64,000 nt of DNA from Phaeobacter sp. CECT 5382. Its GTDB lineage: Bacteria > Pseudomonadota > Alphaproteobacteria > Rhodobacterales > Rhodobacteraceae. This document shows, in pieces, positions 8,266 to 57,260 of this stretch (the stretch's first letter is position 1; every line of letters starts with the position of its first letter). The notes under the pieces were generated by a model that worked only from the letters and a program-made list of their open reading frames with translations, was not told the origin of the DNA and did no database searches. The stretch lies in the NCBI RefSeq assembly GCF_001457775.1, contig NZ_CYSG01000018.1, positions 1 through 64,000 of the forward strand, written 5' to 3'. The translations under genes and the position numbers were made by a program.

Positions 8266-8727
8266 TCACAGTGGCAGCGGGCGCCCCTCGGCAATGGTTT
8301 CCATCGCGAAGTATGAAGTCACGCTGTCCAGCTCGATGCCGCTGATCAAGCGTTGATAGACCCGGTCATAGCTGCGCATGTCCTGGGTCACCACTTTCAG
8401 CTGATAGTCATAGTCGCCACCAATACGGTGAAAATCCACGACTTCAGGGATCGTCAGCACGTGGCGGCGAAAATGGTCCAGCCAATCGGCAGAATGGTGC
8501 CGCGTGCGCAGCATAACAAAAACCACCAGTTCCAGTCCCAGTTTGGCCCGATCGACGCGTGCGGTTGAGCCTTGCAGAACCTTGTTGTCGGTGAGCGCCT
8601 TGAGGCGGCGCCAACAGGCGTTTTGCGACAGGCCGACTATCTCGGCCAGCTCACGTTGGGACAGGTTGGCGTCCTGCTGCAGGGCACGCAGAATGGAGGT
8701 GTCGATATGATCTACATTATTGGTCAT
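8266..8727 (-). CDS. Lrp/AsnC family transcriptional regulator
   Basis: A 153-residue regulator: N-terminal helix-turn-helix (IDTSILRALQQDANLSQREL, then LSQNACWRRLKAL) and C-terminal ligand-binding RAM domain (residues about 70-150). The frame is open back to 8763, but family members begin MTNNVDHIDTSIL, so the ATG at 8727 is preferred; GAGGA lies almost directly against it, which is closer than ideal. It is divergent from a class V PLP enzyme, with a perfect inverted repeat between them. Family knowledge suggests control of that enzyme in response to an amino acid. Confidence 0.9.
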   Translation of the reverse strand: MTNNVDHIDTSILRALQQDANLSQRELAEIVGLSQNACWRRLKALTDNKVLQGSTARVDRAKLGLELVVFVMLRTRHHSADWLDHFRRHVLTIPEVVDFHRIGGDYDYQLKVVTQDMRSYDRVYQRLISGIELDSVTSYFAMETIAEGRPLPL

Positions 8728-13394: not shown

Positions 13395-14393
13395 TCAGCG
13401 CAGGATCAGGCGCGGGGCTGGTCCCAGCGGCAATGGCCCCACCCACATCTGCCCTGTGTCGAACGTGAGGGTGATATCCAATTTTTCCGGCTGTCCCGCA
13501 CGGCCTGCAAAGACCGCCAGAACCTGTTCCAGCCCGCTGCGCAGGCTGGGAGGCAACAGGCTGCTGCGTTCCGCCATATCGAGAACCGAGCGCCAGTTTT
13601 GCGCCTGAAGGGCCAGTATACCGCTCAAGCTTCCTGCCTCGTCCACGGTCAGATCACCGGTGGCCTTTACGCTCAGATCTCCCCACTGGGCTTCGGCCAA
13701 GGTGAGCGAGATCTGCCGGGGCTGCGGGCGTCGCAGCTCGATGGCGCGGCGGTCCCAGGCGGTATCAAACGTCACTTCCGCCAACAGGCCGAGGGTTTCA
13801 AAGCTCTGCGGCAATTGATCAGACGCTGCCAGTAGGCGACGATAGGTGGGGCCGGGCGTGAAGCCTTCGGCACGGGCGGTGAGGGTGTAGCGGTCCGCAC
13901 GAGATTGCTGTTGCATCACCAGAGTGAGGCTTGTGGCCTCCAGTACAGGATCGTCAGCCGTTGCAACCTGCCAATCCGTGCCACTCAGCGCTAGGTGCTC
14001 CAGCTCCAGCGCCAACCCCGGTGAGAGCTGCATTTCGGCCTGCATATTGCGGGCCATCAGGGTCAGGGTCTGGTCGAAATAGGACAATCGCTGCGGGCTG
14101 TCGGAAAAGCGCAGGGTCTGGGCGCCGGGCCACAGGGCCGGGCTTGCAAATTCAGCCCAGTCGGCGCTCCAGGCGGCCCCGGTTCCGGGATCTGCTAGCA
14201 CAGGATGCTGCAGCCGGGTCACGTGCTGGCCGGGGAAGCCGGCTGTGGTCAGCTCGGCATATTCCGCCTGCCAGCCCTGACGGCGCTGTTCTTCAAACCA
14301 CTGCTCCAGCCCGGTACGCAGACCCCAGGCCGCGACGCTCCAATAGGTCATCCAGAGTGCCGCACCCAGGCACAGCCATTTCAGCAGGCGCAT
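13395..14393 (-). CDS. DUF2125 domain protein, membrane-anchored periplasmic
   Basis: A 332-residue protein with an N-terminal uncleaved membrane segment (LLKWLCLGAALWMTYWSVAAW) and a long beta-rich periplasmic part fitting DUF2125, a family common in alphaproteobacteria and related to AsmA-like lipid-transport folds. The ATG at 14393 is preferred over an upstream ATG at 14423 because GAGGG lies before it and the protein then starts directly with its membrane anchor. It is divergent from the ChaC gene and convergent with the extensin-like gene. The function is unknown. Confidence 0.8.
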   Translation of the reverse strand: MRLLKWLCLGAALWMTYWSVAAWGLRTGLEQWFEEQRRQGWQAEYAELTTAGFPGQHVTRLQHPVLADPGTGAAWSADWAEFASPALWPGAQTLRFSDSPQRLSYFDQTLTLMARNMQAEMQLSPGLALELEHLALSGTDWQVATADDPVLEATSLTLVMQQQSRADRYTLTARAEGFTPGPTYRRLLAASDQLPQSFETLGLLAEVTFDTAWDRRAIELRRPQPRQISLTLAEAQWGDLSVKATGDLTVDEAGSLSGILALQAQNWRSVLDMAERSSLLPPSLRSGLEQVLAVFAGRAGQPEKLDITLTFDTGQMWVGPLPLGPAPRLILR

Positions 14394-14463
14394 TCTGCAA
14401 AACCCTCTTTTTTTAGTCTGCAATTTGCTGTTTATAGGCCGCGATCAGAAAGGGCCATAGAGC

Positions 14464-14994
14464 ATGACAATGTGGGTATTCGGATATGGATCGCTGTTGT
14501 GGAACCCGGGGTTCCCGGTCGCACGCCGCGAAGTTGCGACCTTGCAGGGCTATGCGCGCTCGTTCTGCATGTCTTCGATCCATCACCGCGGCACCGAGGA
14601 AAATCCCGGTCTGGTTCTGGCGCTGGATGCCATTGCAGGAAGCCATTGTCAGGGGTTGGCCCTTTGCGTGGCTGCCGGTGAAGAGAGCGCCACGCTGGAC
14701 TATCTGCGTGAGCGCGAGCTGGTCTCGTCTGCCTATCTGGAGCGCGACCTGCCGGTCGCACTGGCCTCAGGCGAGGCGGTGACGGCCGTGACCTATGTGA
14801 TCGACCCCGATCACGTGCAGTATTGCGGGGGTATGGAGCTGGAAAAACAGGCGCAAATCATTGCCAGGGCCGTTGGTGGGCGGGGGCCTAATACCGAATA
14901 TCTTTACAACACTGCTGAACATCTGGCCGAGATCGGCCTTGGGGATGCGGAACTGGAGTGGTTGATGACCCGTGTGCGCCAAATTACGGCATAA
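14464..14994 (+). CDS. chaC: Glutathione-specific gamma-glutamylcyclotransferase (ChaC family)
   Basis: A 176-residue protein with the family's first motif WVFGYGSLLWNPGF at residues 4-17 and the conserved acidic segment YLRERELVSSAYLE near residue 80, where the catalytic Glu lies. ChaC enzymes cleave glutathione to 5-oxoproline and Cys-Gly in the cytosol. The length is normal for a bacterial member. No RBS is strong, but no better start exists. It is followed 78 bases later by the ExbB-like gene in the same direction. Confidence 0.88.
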   Translation: MTMWVFGYGSLLWNPGFPVARREVATLQGYARSFCMSSIHHRGTEENPGLVLALDAIAGSHCQGLALCVAAGEESATLDYLRERELVSSAYLERDLPVALASGEAVTAVTYVIDPDHVQYCGGMELEKQAQIIARAVGGRGPNTEYLYNTAEHLAEIGLGDAELEWLMTRVRQITA

Positions 14995-15072
14995 AGCCTT
15001 GGCGCTTTTGCTTCTTTGCCTTTAAGCTGCCTCGGGCAAAGAGCATTACATCGGGTCAGGACCCCTCCGAAT

Positions 15073-16341
15073 ATGGCGCAACCAGACCGCAAGATCAGGC
15101 CACAGTTTTCGCAACCGGTAAGACAGATCATTCTGATGTTGATCGCATTGGGGATGGCAGGCTTTGGCGCCTTTGTTGCCCTGCCCAAGGTTCTGCCGGT
15201 CTTCCAGGCCAATCCCTGGCTCAACGGGTTTATCATTTTTGTTTTTGTGATCGGGGTGCTGTCCTGTTTCTGGCAGGTGTTGCAGCTGATCGGATCGGTA
15301 CGCTGGATCGAAAGCTTTGCCTCCGGCGGCAGCCGCGGCGAGGATCGCGCCCCTTCCTTGTTGGCACCATTGGCGGCGCTTTTGCGGTCCCGTGCCGCGC
15401 GGATGCAGCTGGGCTCTTCTTCGACGCGTTCGATTTTGGACTCAGTGGCGCAGCGTATCGACGAAGAGCGTGAAATAACCCGCTATATCGTCAACCTGTT
15501 GATTTTTCTGGGTCTGTTGGGCACGTTCTACGGCCTCGCGACAACTGTTCCCGCCGTCGTCGACACCATTCGTAGTCTGGCCCCGCAAGAGGGCGAAGAA
15601 GGGCTGGCGATCTTTAACCGGTTGATGACCGGGCTTGAAGCGCAGCTGGGCGGCATGGGCGTGGCCTTTGCCTCGTCGTTGCTTGGGCTGGCGGGATCGC
15701 TGATCGTTGGCCTTTTGGAACTGTTTGCCGGTCACGGCCAGAACCGGTTCTACCGTGAGCTGGAAGAATGGCTGTCGTCGTTTACGCGGGTCAGCTTTTC
15801 CTCCGGCGAAGAGGGCAATAGTTCTGAGACTGGTGTGGTGTCAGAAGTGCTGGATACCATGGCCGAACAGATGGACGCCCTGCAGGCGATGTTTGTGCAG
15901 AACGCCCAAAGCCGCGCCGAAGTGGACAATAAACTGGCGCAACTGGTGGATGCCATTACCGATATGAATGCGCGCCAGGATCAGACGGCCAGCCTGTCGG
16001 CAGCCCTTGATCGGGTGGCGATTGGGCAAGAAACCCTGACCGAAATCATGCGTGCCCATGGTGACGTCGGGATGGATGCCGAAAGCCGGATGCGGCTGCG
16101 GTCGATCGATGTGCAGATGCTGCGTATTCTCGAAGAGATATCTGCCGGCCGTCAGGAAAGCCTTGCAGAGCTGCGCAAGGATATCGACCTGATGGTCAAG
16201 GCTTTTGCGGTGCCCCGTGGCCGTATGCGTCAGACGCCTAGCCAAACAGCGACTCAAGCACCGGGCCAGCCTGACCCGGCTCAATCTGCTCCGGTGCAGC
16301 CCTCTTCGATCCACAGCGCCTTTAGTCAGGACGAGGATTAA
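15073..16341 (+). CDS. MotA/TolQ/ExbB-like proton channel protein
   Basis: A 422-residue membrane protein. Hydrophobic segments lie at about 18-40, 47-69, 145-165 (IVNLLIFLGLLGTFYGLATT) and 190-215 (MGVAFASSLLGLAGSLIVGL). The last two match the channel-forming helices of MotA/TolQ/ExbB proteins, including the GLLGTFxGL motif. A cytoplasmic tail of about 200 residues follows, helical and then Pro/Gln-rich. The start at 15073 (AQPDRK) fits the family; the frame is open further up. Three bases separate it from the OmpA/MotB-like partner gene, with which it should form a proton-driven complex in the inner membrane. Confidence 0.88.
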   Translation: MAQPDRKIRPQFSQPVRQIILMLIALGMAGFGAFVALPKVLPVFQANPWLNGFIIFVFVIGVLSCFWQVLQLIGSVRWIESFASGGSRGEDRAPSLLAPLAALLRSRAARMQLGSSSTRSILDSVAQRIDEEREITRYIVNLLIFLGLLGTFYGLATTVPAVVDTIRSLAPQEGEEGLAIFNRLMTGLEAQLGGMGVAFASSLLGLAGSLIVGLLELFAGHGQNRFYRELEEWLSSFTRVSFSSGEEGNSSETGVVSEVLDTMAEQMDALQAMFVQNAQSRAEVDNKLAQLVDAITDMNARQDQTASLSAALDRVAIGQETLTEIMRAHGDVGMDAESRMRLRSIDVQMLRILEEISAGRQESLAELRKDIDLMVKAFAVPRGRMRQTPSQTATQAPGQPDPAQSAPVQPSSIHSAFSQDED

Positions 16342-52341: not shown

Positions 52342-53202
52342 ATGTCGACCCCTGCAATCGCAGTCATGCCCTATGGCGGCAAGCTTGGCAAAAGCCTGGC
52401 GGCGCGCCCCTTGTCGGAGATGATCTGGCCACTGGGTTGCCCGGAGCGCCTGATCGGACGTCAGGTGAAAGACATGGCGAAGGACGACCACCTGATCGTT
52501 TTTTCCAAGCGGGCGATGCATTTTCAGTCACATCGCGGCTGCCCGGCCCAGATATCCATGATGGTGATGGAGCCCAAGATCATGTCGCTGGCGCATCACC
52601 GGATGCTCCGCCTGAGCCATCGGCGTTTCTTTCGTGTCTTTACCTACGATCCCGATCTTTTGGCGCGTCTGCCGAATGGGCTGATGCTGCCCTATGGCAC
52701 CACCTGGGTGCCAGATTGGCGGCAGCTGGATACTACCAAGACCACAGATCTTTCACTGATTGCCTCGGCCAAAAACGATCACCCCGGCCACAAGCTGCGC
52801 CATCAAATTGTTACCTATTTGCAGGCGCATATGCCCGAGGCCCAGATCCTGGGGCGTGGCTACACGCCCTTTGAGGACAAGGCCGAAGGGCTGGCTCCCT
52901 ATCGCTATTCCGTGGTGATCGAAAATGTGCAGGAACCGAATTACTTCTCGGAAAAATTGATTGATGCGATCTTGTGTGAGACCGTGCCGATCTATTGGGG
53001 CTGTCCCAATGTCACGGATTTCTTCAGCGGCGACGGGATGATCCTGTGCACCGACCAACAGGATTTCGAGACGGCCCTGAAGACCATCGGCCCTGACGAT
53101 TATGCCCGGCGACTGCCAGCCCTACGTGCGCTGAAGGAACAAGCGTCGGCCTTTTGTGATCTGCCCCTGCGCGCGGCGCTGGCCTTGCAAAACAGCCTGT
53201 AG
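52342..53202 (+). CDS. Glycosyltransferase family 10 (fucosyltransferase-like)
   Basis: A 286-residue protein. The C-terminal half carries the GT10 donor-site signature: YRYSVVIENVQEPNYFSEKL, then IDAILCETVPIYWGCPNVTDFF (residues about 190-234). The N-terminal half is poorly conserved, as usual. GT10 enzymes transfer fucose or related sugars to surface glycans. No polysaccharide cluster surrounds it. The start at 52342 gives a normal length; the frame is open upstream into phzF. Confidence 0.82.
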   Translation: MSTPAIAVMPYGGKLGKSLAARPLSEMIWPLGCPERLIGRQVKDMAKDDHLIVFSKRAMHFQSHRGCPAQISMMVMEPKIMSLAHHRMLRLSHRRFFRVFTYDPDLLARLPNGLMLPYGTTWVPDWRQLDTTKTTDLSLIASAKNDHPGHKLRHQIVTYLQAHMPEAQILGRGYTPFEDKAEGLAPYRYSVVIENVQEPNYFSEKLIDAILCETVPIYWGCPNVTDFFSGDGMILCTDQQDFETALKTIGPDDYARRLPALRALKEQASAFCDLPLRAALALQNSL

Positions 53203-53282
53203 GGCGGTTGCCCAAAGGCACTGCCAGCTATTGCATTGAATTTGAGGTGGGCGCGGTTGCCGACAAAGCCTGCAGTCACGAA

Positions 53283-53310
53283 AAAAGGCCGACAAAAGCG
53301 TCGGCCTTTT
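53283..53310. terminator. Bidirectional rho-independent terminator
   Basis: AAAAGGCCGAC and GTCGGCCTTTT are exact complements around AAAAGC, with an A run before and a T-rich end after. It serves the convergent GT10 and sulfurylase genes. Confidence 0.85.
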
Positions 53311-53335
53311 CCTATTTGTCATGATCTTGTCGGGC

Positions 53336-55411
53336 TTAGCCTGCGATCAGACCCATGTTTTCCAGCTTCAGCAGAACCTGATGGGCGCAGTTGTCGACTT
53401 CGACATTCTCGGTCTCAACGCTCAGTTCAGGATTGGCAGGCACATCATAGGGGTCGGAGATGCCGGTGAATTCCTTGATCTTGCCTTCGCGGGCCAACTT
53501 GTAGAGCCCTTTGCGGTCACGGCGTTCGCATTCCTCGATCGAGGTGGCGACATGCACTTCGACAAACGCACCAAAGGATTCAACGTCTTCACGTACCGCA
53601 CGACGGGTGGTCGCGTAGGGCGCGATAGGGGCACAGATGGCGATGCCGCCGTTTTTGGTGATCTCGGAGGCAACATAGCCGATGCGGCGGATGTTGAGGT
53701 CGCGGTGCTCTTTCGAGAAACCCAGCTCAGAGCTGAGGTTCTTGCGCACGATGTCACCGTCCAGCAGTGTCACGGGGCGGCCACCCATTTCCATCAGCTT
53801 GACCATCAGCGCGTTGGCGATGGTGGATTTGCCTGACCCGGAGAAGCCGGTGAAGAACACAGTGAAACCCTGCTTGGAACGTGGTGGCTTGGTCTTGCGC
53901 AACTCCTTGACCACTTCGGGGAAAGAGAACCACTCGGGGATTTCCAGACCTTCGGCCAGACGGCGGCGCAACTCGGTGCCCGAGATGTTGAGGATGGTGA
54001 CATTATCCTTGTCTTCGATCTCGTCGATGGCCTCATATTGTGCGCGTTCCGACACCCAGACCATATGTTTGAAATCGACCATTTCGATGCCCATTTCTTC
54101 TTGATGGGCTCGGAACAGGTCCTGTGCATCATAGGGGCCATAGAAATCTTCACCGGCAGAGTTTTTGCCGGGGCCTGCGTGGTCGCGGCCAACGATGAAG
54201 TGGGTGCAGCCGTGGTTTTTGCGAATCAGGCCATGCCAGACGGCTTCGCGTGGGCCAGCCATGCGCATCGCCAGGTTCAGCAGGCTCATCGAGGTGGTAG
54301 AGGCGGGGTATTTGTCCAGAACCGCCTCGTAACAGCGCACGCGGGTGAAGTGGTCAACGTCACCTGGCTTGGTCATGCCCACAACCGGATGGATCAGCAG
54401 GTTGGCCTGAGCTTCACGCGCGGCGCGGAAGGTCAGCTCCTGGTGGGCGCGGTGCAGAGGGTTGCGGGTCTGGAAGGCGACAACCTTGCGCCAGCCAACC
54501 TTGCGGAAATAGGCGCGCAGCTCGTTGGGGGTGTCGCGACGGGCGCGGAAGTCATAGTGCACAGGCTGTTGAATGCCGGTCACGGGACCGCCCAGGTAGA
54601 TTTTGCCAGCTTGATTGTGTAGGTAGTTGACCGCCGGGTGGGCGTCGTCATCGGCGCCAAAGACCTTTTCGGCTTCGCGGGATTTGTTTGGCTCCCAGCT
54701 GTCGGTCACGGTCATGGTGGCCAGGATCACGCCTTCCTGGTCGCGCAGAGCGATGTCTTCGCCTGCATTCAGGCTGGCAGCAAAATCTTCGGAGACATCC
54801 AGAGTGATGGGCATGGGCCACAGGGCGCCGTTTTCCAGACGCATGTTTTCGACAACGCCATTGTAGTCGGCTTCGCCCAAGAACCCCTTCAGCGGGCTGA
54901 AGCCGCCGTTCATCAAGAGTTCGAGGTCACAGATCTGGCGCGGAGTAAGATCGTGGCTTTTCAGCTCGCCGGCCTCAATTTTGAGTTTCTGTGCAGAATC
55001 GTAAGAGACATAGAGCTCTGGGATGGGGGCCAGGTTGTTTTCCATTGGATGTGTCCTGTGTTTGACGTGGGGCAGGCCGCTTGCGGTGCCGGTAAGTTCC
55101 GCATGTAATGCGTTGTATTCGGCAAGCTTGCGGGCCAGGAATTGATCGGTGAGCTGGTTCTTTTCAGCTGCACCGCGCGTGGTCAGCGTATAGGCGTAAC
55201 GCTGCCTTTTATCCGGGCCGGGTCTGTCGCTGATGGTGATCAGCCCGGCTTCGGTTGCGGTGCGAAGCTGAGTATTCAGCCGACCGAGAGAAATGTTCAG
55301 GGCCGCTGCCGTTGCCCGTTGCGAAGCATCCGGCACCAGATCGAGCTGGCGCAAGAGGCGGAAGAGCAGGTCTTCCTCAATCGGGGTGGGTGTCAGGTTC
55401 GGAGCGGTCAT
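53336..55411 (-). CDS. MarR domain fused to bifunctional sulfate adenylyltransferase / APS kinase
   Basis: A 691-residue open frame. Residues 1 to about 105 are a winged helix of the EPS-associated MarR type (RLLRQLDLVPDASQRATAAA, then RGAAEKNQLTDQFLARKLAE). Residues 123 to about 510 are ATP sulfurylase (QTRNPLHRAH at 314-323, then GRDHAGPG), and the rest is APS kinase (GFSGSGKS near 525, LLDGDIVR). The enzyme activates sulfate to PAPS. An internal ATG at 55045 (residue 123), eight bases after AGGA, would give a normal 569-residue enzyme, so both a fusion and a stand-alone enzyme could be made. No stop lies between the two parts. Confidence 0.9.
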   Translation of the reverse strand: MTAPNLTPTPIEEDLLFRLLRQLDLVPDASQRATAAALNISLGRLNTQLRTATEAGLITISDRPGPDKRQRYAYTLTTRGAAEKNQLTDQFLARKLAEYNALHAELTGTASGLPHVKHRTHPMENNLAPIPELYVSYDSAQKLKIEAGELKSHDLTPRQICDLELLMNGGFSPLKGFLGEADYNGVVENMRLENGALWPMPITLDVSEDFAASLNAGEDIALRDQEGVILATMTVTDSWEPNKSREAEKVFGADDDAHPAVNYLHNQAGKIYLGGPVTGIQQPVHYDFRARRDTPNELRAYFRKVGWRKVVAFQTRNPLHRAHQELTFRAAREAQANLLIHPVVGMTKPGDVDHFTRVRCYEAVLDKYPASTTSMSLLNLAMRMAGPREAVWHGLIRKNHGCTHFIVGRDHAGPGKNSAGEDFYGPYDAQDLFRAHQEEMGIEMVDFKHMVWVSERAQYEAIDEIEDKDNVTILNISGTELRRRLAEGLEIPEWFSFPEVVKELRKTKPPRSKQGFTVFFTGFSGSGKSTIANALMVKLMEMGGRPVTLLDGDIVRKNLSSELGFSKEHRDLNIRRIGYVASEITKNGGIAICAPIAPYATTRRAVREDVESFGAFVEVHVATSIEECERRDRKGLYKLAREGKIKEFTGISDPYDVPANPELSVETENVEVDNCAHQVLLKLENMGLIAG

Positions 55412-55589
55412 GGCAAATGAATCAATCTGTGTTCACGCGTGAACGCATCGCATAAAAGGCGACACCTGCAAAGTGGAAAAAATGGCGCAAACCCTTGCCG
55501 CAGCCCAGCGTGGTGGCGTTGCAACGCCTTTGGTCTGAATTGCCTACCTGTCGGCAGAAACTGTTCCATTCCGTTCTGGCGGCGCGGGA

Positions 55590-57260
55590 TTAATGGCCCG
55601 GAACATCAAGAATTTCGGGAAGTTCCATCGTCTGGCGAACGGGTAGAGCCGCCAGCGGGGCAGAGACACCGCGCAGCTGAAAGTCGCGCAGCCCCAGTTT
55701 CTGGGTGTCATACCCCGCCGCCAGAAGCGCCTGAGCTGAGACCAAAAGCTCGACCCCCAACTCTTTGGTCTGTGCCTCCAGGCGGCTGGCGGCGTTGACC
55801 GTATCGCCTATAATTGTGCGTGGGGCATTGCCGGAAGATCCGATTTCACCGATGACCACCTCACCGAGATGCAGCCCCATGCCGATCCGCACCGGGGCCT
55901 CTCCCTCTGACAGGAGGGTTTCGTTGAAATCTGCAACGGCCCGTCCAATATCGGTGACCGCGTGCAGCCCGGCCTGTGCGGATTTTACCGCATCAGGCGC
56001 CTCAAAGACGGCCAAAAGCCCATCCCCAAGGTATTTATCGACGGTGCCGCCATTGTTGAGGATACAAGGGACGATGGCATCAAAAAAGCGGTTCAGCAAA
56101 AAGACGACATCATAGGGCAGCTGCCCGGACGTGCGCGCGGTAAAGCCGCGCATATCCAGAAACAGAATGGCCAGCTGCCGTTCTTCGCCTTGGCTGGCGT
56201 GGGCGCGACCTTTTTGGCCGTCGGGCCGGAACAGGCGGCAGACGCTCAACGGCGCATTCGGGTGGATCTGGCAGGCCAGTCGCATGTTTTGCGGTGCCCT
56301 GACTGCTGCGAGGCTGCGGGCCTCGGCATCCGAGGGCGGCGGCAGGGTGTCTGCACCATCCTCGATAACCACCCGGCAGGTTGTGCAACGCCCCTTGCCG
56401 CCGCAGAGCGCGGTATGCGGAATGGCATTGGCGCGCGACATTTCCAGCAAGGTCATGCCTTTTTCCGCCACCACAATAGGGCCGTTGCGATAGGTGATAC
56501 GCACGGATCTGCGCCGCCGCAACAGCTTGCGCAGGCCATAGATCATGGCTGTCAGAAACAGAAAAAAGACAAAGATCTGCACCAGGCGCGTCTCAACAAG
56601 TTGCAAGCTGGCAAAGCTGTCCTGGCTGGGCCAGTTGTAGCTTGCCATCAATGCGGCGCGTTCTGTTCCTTCGACGAAGATATCGTAGATCCTGCGGCCT
56701 TCGGTCAAAAGCCCGGCCAGCGCAAAGCTGGGGATAAAGACTGCAAGACCGATCATGTATGGCAGCGCATTGCGCCACCAGTCGGTCAGACGCAGCCAGA
56801 AATGCAGCCCCATGCAGCCGTGGACCCAAACCACAAGCAAAAGTGCCGATTGCCACCAGACGGCTGGCGCGTTCCACATCAAGACAATGACATAGGGGTA
56901 GGTGTCATTCACCGCAAAATTTTGATGGGCGACCGTGGTATGGGTGATGTGGCGCAGCAGTTGCAAAGGGATCAGCAGGCCAAGCGCGGTCTGCACCGCC
57001 TGCGACAGTGGCATGCGCAGGCTGCGACGCAGTGCGAGCCGCCAAAGTGCCAGCCCCAGATGTGTGATCAATGCGCCAGTCAGCACCAGCCCACCAAGGG
57101 GGGTGCGCGTGATCATATGCCGGACGTCCTGCATCCTTTCCATGGTATCAGTTGAGATGAGGCCGAGGCCAAGATTGATGAAGTGGAAAAAGGCAAATGC
57201 GAACAGTATCAACCCGCTTATGATGCGGGTGCGGGTGATCCAGTTGCCCTGCCATAGCAT
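55590..57260 (-). CDS. Membrane-bound class III adenylate cyclase with ferredoxin domain
   Basis: A 556-residue protein with three parts. Residues 1 to about 255 form five or six membrane helices with many His residues in helices (FHFINL, ITHLGL, HITHTTVAHQ, VHGCMGLHFW), like diheme-b succinate dehydrogenase anchors. Residues about 260-350 are a 2Fe-2S ferredoxin (CGGKGRCTTC, then a fourth Cys in LACQIH). Residues about 365-540 are a class III cyclase (LFLDMRGFTART, DKYLGDGLLAVFE, TIIGDTVNAASRLE). Known relatives such as CyaC of Sinorhizobium respond to quinone redox state; that role is inferred here. Confidence 0.88.
   Translation of the reverse strand: MLWQGNWITRTRIISGLILFAFAFFHFINLGLGLISTDTMERMQDVRHMITRTPLGGLVLTGALITHLGLALWRLALRRSLRMPLSQAVQTALGLLIPLQLLRHITHTTVAHQNFAVNDTYPYVIVLMWNAPAVWWQSALLLVVWVHGCMGLHFWLRLTDWWRNALPYMIGLAVFIPSFALAGLLTEGRRIYDIFVEGTERAALMASYNWPSQDSFASLQLVETRLVQIFVFFLFLTAMIYGLRKLLRRRRSVRITYRNGPIVVAEKGMTLLEMSRANAIPHTALCGGKGRCTTCRVVIEDGADTLPPPSDAEARSLAAVRAPQNMRLACQIHPNAPLSVCRLFRPDGQKGRAHASQGEERQLAILFLDMRGFTARTSGQLPYDVVFLLNRFFDAIVPCILNNGGTVDKYLGDGLLAVFEAPDAVKSAQAGLHAVTDIGRAVADFNETLLSEGEAPVRIGMGLHLGEVVIGEIGSSGNAPRTIIGDTVNAASRLEAQTKELGVELLVSAQALLAAGYDTQKLGLRDFQLRGVSAPLAALPVRQTMELPEILDVPGH

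Follow-up and report, generated by a model that had tools for sequence, protein, structure and literature searches.

An in-frame fusion of a MarR-type winged helix to a sulfate-activating enzyme, with a conserved internal start and a candidate operator, points to a probable self-regulating dual-start gene

The window (i.e., the whole stretch of DNA analysed, comprising positions 1 to 64,000 of contig NZ_CYSG01000018.1 from Phaeobacter sp. CECT 5382) carries a gene in which a MarR-type winged helix runs, via a short linker, into a sulfate adenylyltransferase-APS kinase (SAT-APSK; Table 1). This anatomy, including an internal AGGA and ATG at the junction, had been proposed in a preliminary description of the sequence and was borne out by the open frame and by profile matches. 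In NCBIfam, residues 12-107 matched TIGR04176 (MarR_EPS), the entire protein scoring 79 bits and the MarR part by itself 83.7 bits, both below the curated cut-off of 88 bits, and residues 121-690 passed the cut-off of NF004040 (SAT-APSK; 1043.6 vs. 669 bits). Nearby genes encode a ferredoxin-adenylate cyclase, a pyridine-nucleotide disulfide oxidoreductase (read as trxB), an Lrp-type regulator, PhzF, HSP20 and, in one case, a GT10-like protein, and the polysaccharide gene neighbourhood that is typical of MarR_EPS was not found among them. The gene located 5′ of the fused ORF (window positions 55590-57260, minus strand) combines a 2Fe-2S ferredoxin domain with an adenylate/guanylate cyclase domain, and such a ferredoxin-cyclase gene also lies near the SAT gene in some relatives. 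At the other end, the call of a terminator-like hairpin is weak, because the scanned region yielded five such matches vs. a mean of 3.3 in shuffled sequence.

Table 1. Features of the fused gene and its upstream region, in window positions.
Feature	Positions	Strand	Remarks
Fused ORF, long form (691 codons): MarR-type winged helix, linker and SAT-APSK	53336-55411	-	no internal stop
Winged-helix domain, residues 10-107 (C-terminal long helix 78-107)	55091-55384	-	TIGR04176 below cut-off; HTH_24; AF2; Foldseek to MarR proteins
Linker, 14 codons, from LTG to codon 123	55046-55087	-	low pLDDT
Internal Shine-Dalgarno AGGA (codon -4 = AGG)	55054-55057	-	AGGA in 90/91 fused loci
Internal start codon ATG (codon 123)	55043-55045	-	8 nt from AGGA
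Short ORF, plain SAT-APSK (569 residues)	53336-55045	-	NF004040 over cut-off; motifs of both enzymes
Long-form start codon	55409-55411	-	no SD tetramer; comparison of 89 loci
Candidate operator, perfect palindrome GTTCACGCGTGAAC	55431-55444		19 nt 5′ of long start; single exact copy in genome
-10-like block TGNNAT	55447-55452	-	directly upstream of palindrome; columns 0.80-0.94, 89 loci
CTTT block, -35-like	55470-55473	-	columns 0.74-0.97, 89 loci
Terminator-like hairpin 3′ of gene	53283-53310		weak; called on + strand only

The enzyme part contains QTRNPLHRAH (residues 314-323) and GRDHAGPG (residues 408-415), which we take to be ATP-sulfurylase motifs, and a P-loop (residues 522-530), presumably that of the APS kinase. 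Nearly all columns of these motifs are invariant over 16 sequences, and the motifs of both enzyme domains are, as judged from this alignment, intact, just as in an ordinary bacterial SAT-APSK (NF004040), with which the fused protein shares the full enzyme. Nearly all of this part can be aligned by sequence with ATP sulfurylases and SAT/APS kinases of solved structure (such as 1i2d and 2gks), the nearest solved structures being 1i2d, 1m8p and 2gks. The genome carries one such SAT-APSK gene, and no match to CysD was found in it.

The MarR-type fold of the N-terminal part is supported by structure prediction. The AF2 model of residues 1-121 is good (mean pLDDT 82.8) and shows a winged helix ending in a long helix; its best Foldseek match was the MarR-family protein HcaR (4rgu_B; E 6e-5, TM about 0.5). 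The top matches were MarR proteins; Sso10a-2 was matched as well (TM 0.73-0.76 by its own length). The full-length AF2 model (mean pLDDT 44.3) was poor outside the winged helix. A search of the genome for a second MarR_EPS gave no match better than 23 bits; a match of that score (TIGR04176, E 2e-4) lies in a 165-codon frame (window positions 8572-8709, minus strand), which probably encodes another winged-helix regulator.

The fusion recurs in relatives. Among 16 relatives chosen by the MarR part alone (with records titled Phaeobacter, Roseobacter, Roseovarius, Thalassovita, Nereida, Cognatishimia, Shimia, Planktomarina and others), the frame was open from the MarR part into the SAT-APSK in all 16, that of L015 reaching the end of its stretch. 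Close MarR matches (E < 1e-31) were present in 65 of 195 genomes of the order, all 65 of them in open frames of 690-788 codons, and at least 57 of 295 genomes of the family had matches spanning from the MarR part to the end. Within the same genus, 11 of 12 genomes carried a full-length fused ORF, the match in the twelfth (G757) being in three broken pieces from residue 106 on. Among the matches listed for 337 genomes of the class, the fusion was seen only in the window's own family.

For comparison of the junction, all 57 family loci, 30 loci from the order search and the 16 relatives were pooled (the other 35 fused matches of the order search were left out here, some of their genomes being covered by the family search). 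Loci that did not differ within 400 bases around the junction were counted once, which left 124 distinct loci, i.e., 91 fused ones and 33 others, the latter drawn mostly from the top of the family match list and not at random. Since a locus was called fused when a MarR match and at least 100 open codons preceded codon 123, openness is no test within the 91 fused loci. It is informative over the 92 of 124 loci with an upstream MarR match, 91 of which were open through the junction, and between residues 105 and 123 none of these 92 was interrupted by a stop or frameshift. As the loci are related, such counts are not independent events. A sequencing error or chance open frame could be rejected as the origin of the fusion from the 16/16, 65/65 and 91/92 open frames. 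The sole exception among the 92 (L116; G157:C81:5377-7877) stops within its MarR part. Its linker, AGGA, internal ATG and examined enzyme start are intact and no palindrome was found there; an assembly problem is possible, because the G157 genome is fragmented. The linker measured 14 codons in 90 of the 91 fused loci and 13 in the remaining one. Over the 1171 of 4095 possible pairs that passed a divergence filter, median dN/dS was 0.22 for the MarR part plus linker vs. 0.15 for the N-terminal part of SAT, and by this comparative measure the MarR part is under selection.

Upstream of the long start lies a DNA target that the preliminary description had overlooked. The palindrome core GTTCA-N4-TGAAC was found there exactly in 89 of the 91 fused loci, with 27 different spacers, and it occurred nowhere else in the 357,527 bp of fused loci nor in any of the 33 unfused loci. 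The two exceptions are L037, in which the contig ends next to the right half-site, and L009, which has one-mismatch forms. In 19 of the 89 loci, another palindrome, deviating at no more than one position, lies 26-49 nt further upstream, the distance being exactly 32 nt (about three helical turns) in eight of them. The conserved CTTT and TGNNAT blocks look like a promoter. Because no consensus sigma-70 promoter was called in 53200-55700, it is from these conserved blocks only that the palindrome is suggested to overlap the start of transcription. Between palindrome and long start, there is a further conserved block, ACActttgagtc (window positions 55419-55430, minus strand; columns up to 0.97), which is no SD tetramer.

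The complete palindrome occurs exactly once in the genome and its exact core five times, and only the site of the fused gene is located in an upstream intergenic region. Three of the other four core sites lie inside genes (which, from their translations, read like infC, phnK and a short membrane-protein gene), and the fourth at the overlap of two co-directional, phage-type primase/toprim-like genes, leaving the gene's own promoter as the evident target. A regulon of other genes in this genome was therefore discarded as far as exact core sites are concerned. An extended palindrome pattern matched in 5 of 60 relatives' genomes but missed the window's own site, being too strict to be of use. The idea of the preliminary description that a sulfate-activating enzyme might bind DNA thus gained support from a candidate operator at its own promoter, whereas the control of other sulfur or exopolysaccharide genes, which it had envisaged as well, gained no support from the positions of the four other core sites.

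Instead of repressing its own promoter, the long form could act as an activator, or mainly control unlinked genes. The layout with a second upstream palindrome could suit activation too, and one- and two-mismatch sites, which the above count of exact core sites leaves aside, do exist in the genome. The main site, however, has the conserved -10-like block on one side and the start codon on the other, and no other exact core site was located in an upstream intergenic region of the genome, so that we regard this alternative as unlikely and repression of the own promoter as the better reading.

Not all orthologues carry the regulatory part. A trxB or cyclase gene lies upstream in 72 of the 91 fused and in 28 of the 33 unfused loci (the flanks differ in length), suggesting that fused and unfused genes are largely at the same place and that MarR part and palindrome are present or absent as a block. 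Since many relatives (cf. the 33 unfused loci examined) do without the MarR part, the control appears dispensable in the long run. The SAT-domain tree was rejected as a means to count gains and losses of the MarR part, as only 7 of its 121 inner branches were well supported, which is too few; the fused label required 27 changes on it vs. a shuffled mean of 29.3 and was not clustered. Close SAT-APSK copies were also found on Roseobacter and Sulfitobacter plasmids (NC_008387, NC_015729, NZ_CP081119 and others), and these are apparently unfused, because the matches of the ten best begin only at residue 115-129.

These unfused orthologues, mostly at a shared location, are what could be expected if only the plain enzyme mattered and the MarR part were a translated leftover that mainly carries the promoter. 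The strong internal ribosome site and start fit this as well, as does L116, from its fragmented genome, in keeping linker, ribosome site and examined enzyme part despite the stops in its MarR part. A mere leftover is difficult to reconcile, however, with a dN/dS of about 0.22 in the MarR part, with open fused frames for each of the 65 close MarR matches, and with a palindrome that is kept together with the fusion. We therefore consider a leftover slightly less probable still than activation, and retain the MarR part as a probable regulator of its own gene.

The internal start that had been proposed to yield a 569-residue enzyme received strong comparative support. Codon 123 (shifted by one codon in L082 to match its shorter linker) is ATG in 81, GTG in nine and TTG in one of the 91 fused loci, i.e., a start-type codon throughout, and a valine at this position is always encoded by GTG (9/9). 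The codon four positions earlier is AGG in 90 of 91, although AGG makes up only 23 of 2299 (1.0%) of the other arginine codons in the same genes. Accompanying this, AGGA is present at the internal site in 90 of 91 (CGGA in the exception, L097). When the first ATG past the palindrome, or failing that GTG or TTG, was assigned as the long start, an SD tetramer (AGGA, GGAG or GAGG) preceded it in only 2 of 89 loci, compared to 90 of 91 for the internal start. At other same-frame places of the MarR region, which served as control, such tetramers occurred in a mean of 4.5% of loci (with a maximum of 58% at one place), and in the unfused loci they were found in 4 of 33, over a wider range of -25 to -5 relative to the position of codon 123. 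The fused genes thus display the conserved internal ribosome site (90/91) and start codon (91/91) of an in-frame dual-start gene; selection seems to keep a strong internal start, and both the long and the plain product look selected. It could still be argued that the long form alone is made and that AGGA and ATG are incidental codons, given that codon -4 always encodes arginine (91/91), but neither the near-exclusive choice of AGG for it nor the start-type codons at position 123 would then be expected, making this very improbable.

The DNA site appears to belong to the MarR subfamily rather than to this gene only. Fifteen stand-alone MarR_EPS relatives were taken from the order-search matches with E 1e-22 to 1e-9 (on 14 stretches; weaker matches were left out), and these are 37-51% identical to the fused MarR part over the matched part. 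Each of the 15 has a related palindrome, GYTCR-N4-YGARC, located 76-137 nt before the matched part, and the same pattern had five matches elsewhere on those stretches, two of which are in L162, a stretch that carries two of the genes and in which the two extra palindromes are presumably the sister gene's own site. That a different regulator binds a palindrome which merely travels with the fused gene is hardly credible, given its presence with the MarR part in 89 of 91 loci vs. none of 33 without, and before all 15 stand-alone relatives.

Fused and stand-alone proteins thus have a homologous winged helix and a related upstream palindrome in common, but differ in their surroundings. Where read, the genes downstream of the stand-alone regulators are of polysaccharide type, and in 14 of the 15 an ops-like GCGGTAGC is located nearer to the gene than the palindrome. 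In the fused loci, which have the regulator joined to an enzyme at a trxB-type locus, GCGGTAGC was absent from 520 to 340 nt before codon 123. The GCGGTAGC element upstream of the stand-alone genes (on L161-L174) also resembles JUMPstart and might serve an RfaH-like antitermination of these exopolysaccharide operons, possibly with the NusG paralogue of genome G312 (see below). In a tree, the 91 fused MarR domains fell on one side of a branch and the 15 stand-alone ones on the other (SH-aLRT 100, on 100 columns only); this is most simply read as a single fusion in which a version of the operator was retained.

The expectation of the preliminary description that relatives have two adjacent genes proved mostly wrong, with a single genome, G312, showing them. 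In this genome (L194, G312:C5:6000-25000; positions 13997-16285), a MarR_EPS gene that stands alone (49% identical) directly precedes a SAT-APSK gene, the two being separated by stops. Downstream are epimerases, glycosyltransferases, a flippase-like gene and a sulfotransferase (L194 5330-6232), and divergently oriented are a NusG paralogue (L194 16300-16989) and YjbH. The SAT-APSK in the cluster would likely provide PAPS for a sulfated polysaccharide; G312 carries another, unfused SAT-APSK in addition. This two-gene arrangement may resemble the state before fusion. Because the stand-alone relatives adjoin polysaccharide-type genes and the G312 pair heads an exopolysaccharide cluster, the exopolysaccharide link of the fused gene appears to be one of ancestry.

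In many marine bacteria of the Roseobacter group, the sulfate-activating enzyme comes with a built-in regulator, its promoter bears a matching DNA site, and a second start would supply the plain form too, so that the enzyme probably controls its own production. We consider it likely that a single self-regulating dual-start gene gives rise to two PAPS synthases, one DNA-binding and one plain, of which the former represses its own promoter. From the comparative data, we infer how two proteins, made in unequal amounts, could achieve this. The MarR-type domain would form a dimer, held by its long C-terminal helix plus the enzyme's own oligomerisation, and would bind GTTCA-N4-TGAAC where transcription of its own gene should start, leading to repression. 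From the same mRNA, the strong internal ribosome site would mostly yield the plain enzyme, and the long start, lacking a Shine-Dalgarno tetramer, would contribute a minority of DNA-binding subunits that join the same oligomers. The amount of enzyme, possibly tuned by APS, PAPS and ATP in the enzyme domains, would in this way feed back on its own gene. A more specific version, which we put forward tentatively and with more doubt than belief, likens the gene to a thermostat. The plain subunits from the strong start and the few DNA-binding subunits from the weak one would mix, and their APS/PAPS state would set promoter occupancy; the control part and a version of its operator would stem from the regulators of operons for exopolysaccharides, one or more of these operons producing their own sulfate donor, and would have been moved onto the housekeeping gene for sulfate activation.

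The activation of sulfate is costly, and both the synthesis of cysteine and every sulfation depend on it. Trigger enzymes such as PutA, BirA and NadR are active metabolic enzymes that double as transcription regulators, and the fused protein resembles them in that sequence features of both an enzyme and a regulator are present. No trigger enzyme known to us activates sulfate, and we know of none whose gene also yields the enzyme by itself from a conserved internal start. DNA-binding domains on enzymes and in-frame dual starts within a gene are, each by itself, already known. In BzdR, a linker is reported to join the DNA-binding domain to an enzyme-like shikimate kinase domain, and the loss of enzymatic activity is reported to have been essential for BzdR (PMC3602430). 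A DNA-binding domain joined by a linker to an enzyme(-like) domain is thus common to BzdR and the fused SAT-APSK, in which, however, the enzyme motifs are intact. On pIGRK, RepR and RepR′ are reported to be a full-length and an in-frame shorter protein made via an internal start, both regulating their own expression (PMC6854812). One locus thus gives a long and an internal-start form in either case, but the pIGRK gene is reported to encode a plasmid replication protein of which both products bind DNA. In the open-access literature, no published account was found of a MarR fusion to a sulfate-activating enzyme with a conserved palindrome and both starts.

If the proposed mechanism is true, it would constitute a direct loop from enzyme to gene in sulfur assimilation, with no separate regulator, in the sea-abundant bacteria of the Roseobacter group, and a trigger enzyme in which a pair of conserved starts fixes the regulatory share. 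The fusion also illustrates a plausible route by which the regulator of a pathway became part of the enzyme, a two-gene arrangement still existing in one genome. Finally, a SAT-APSK match inside a 1101-codon open frame was encountered in another family of the class (G655:C3:373462-375135), where it possibly represents another fusion.
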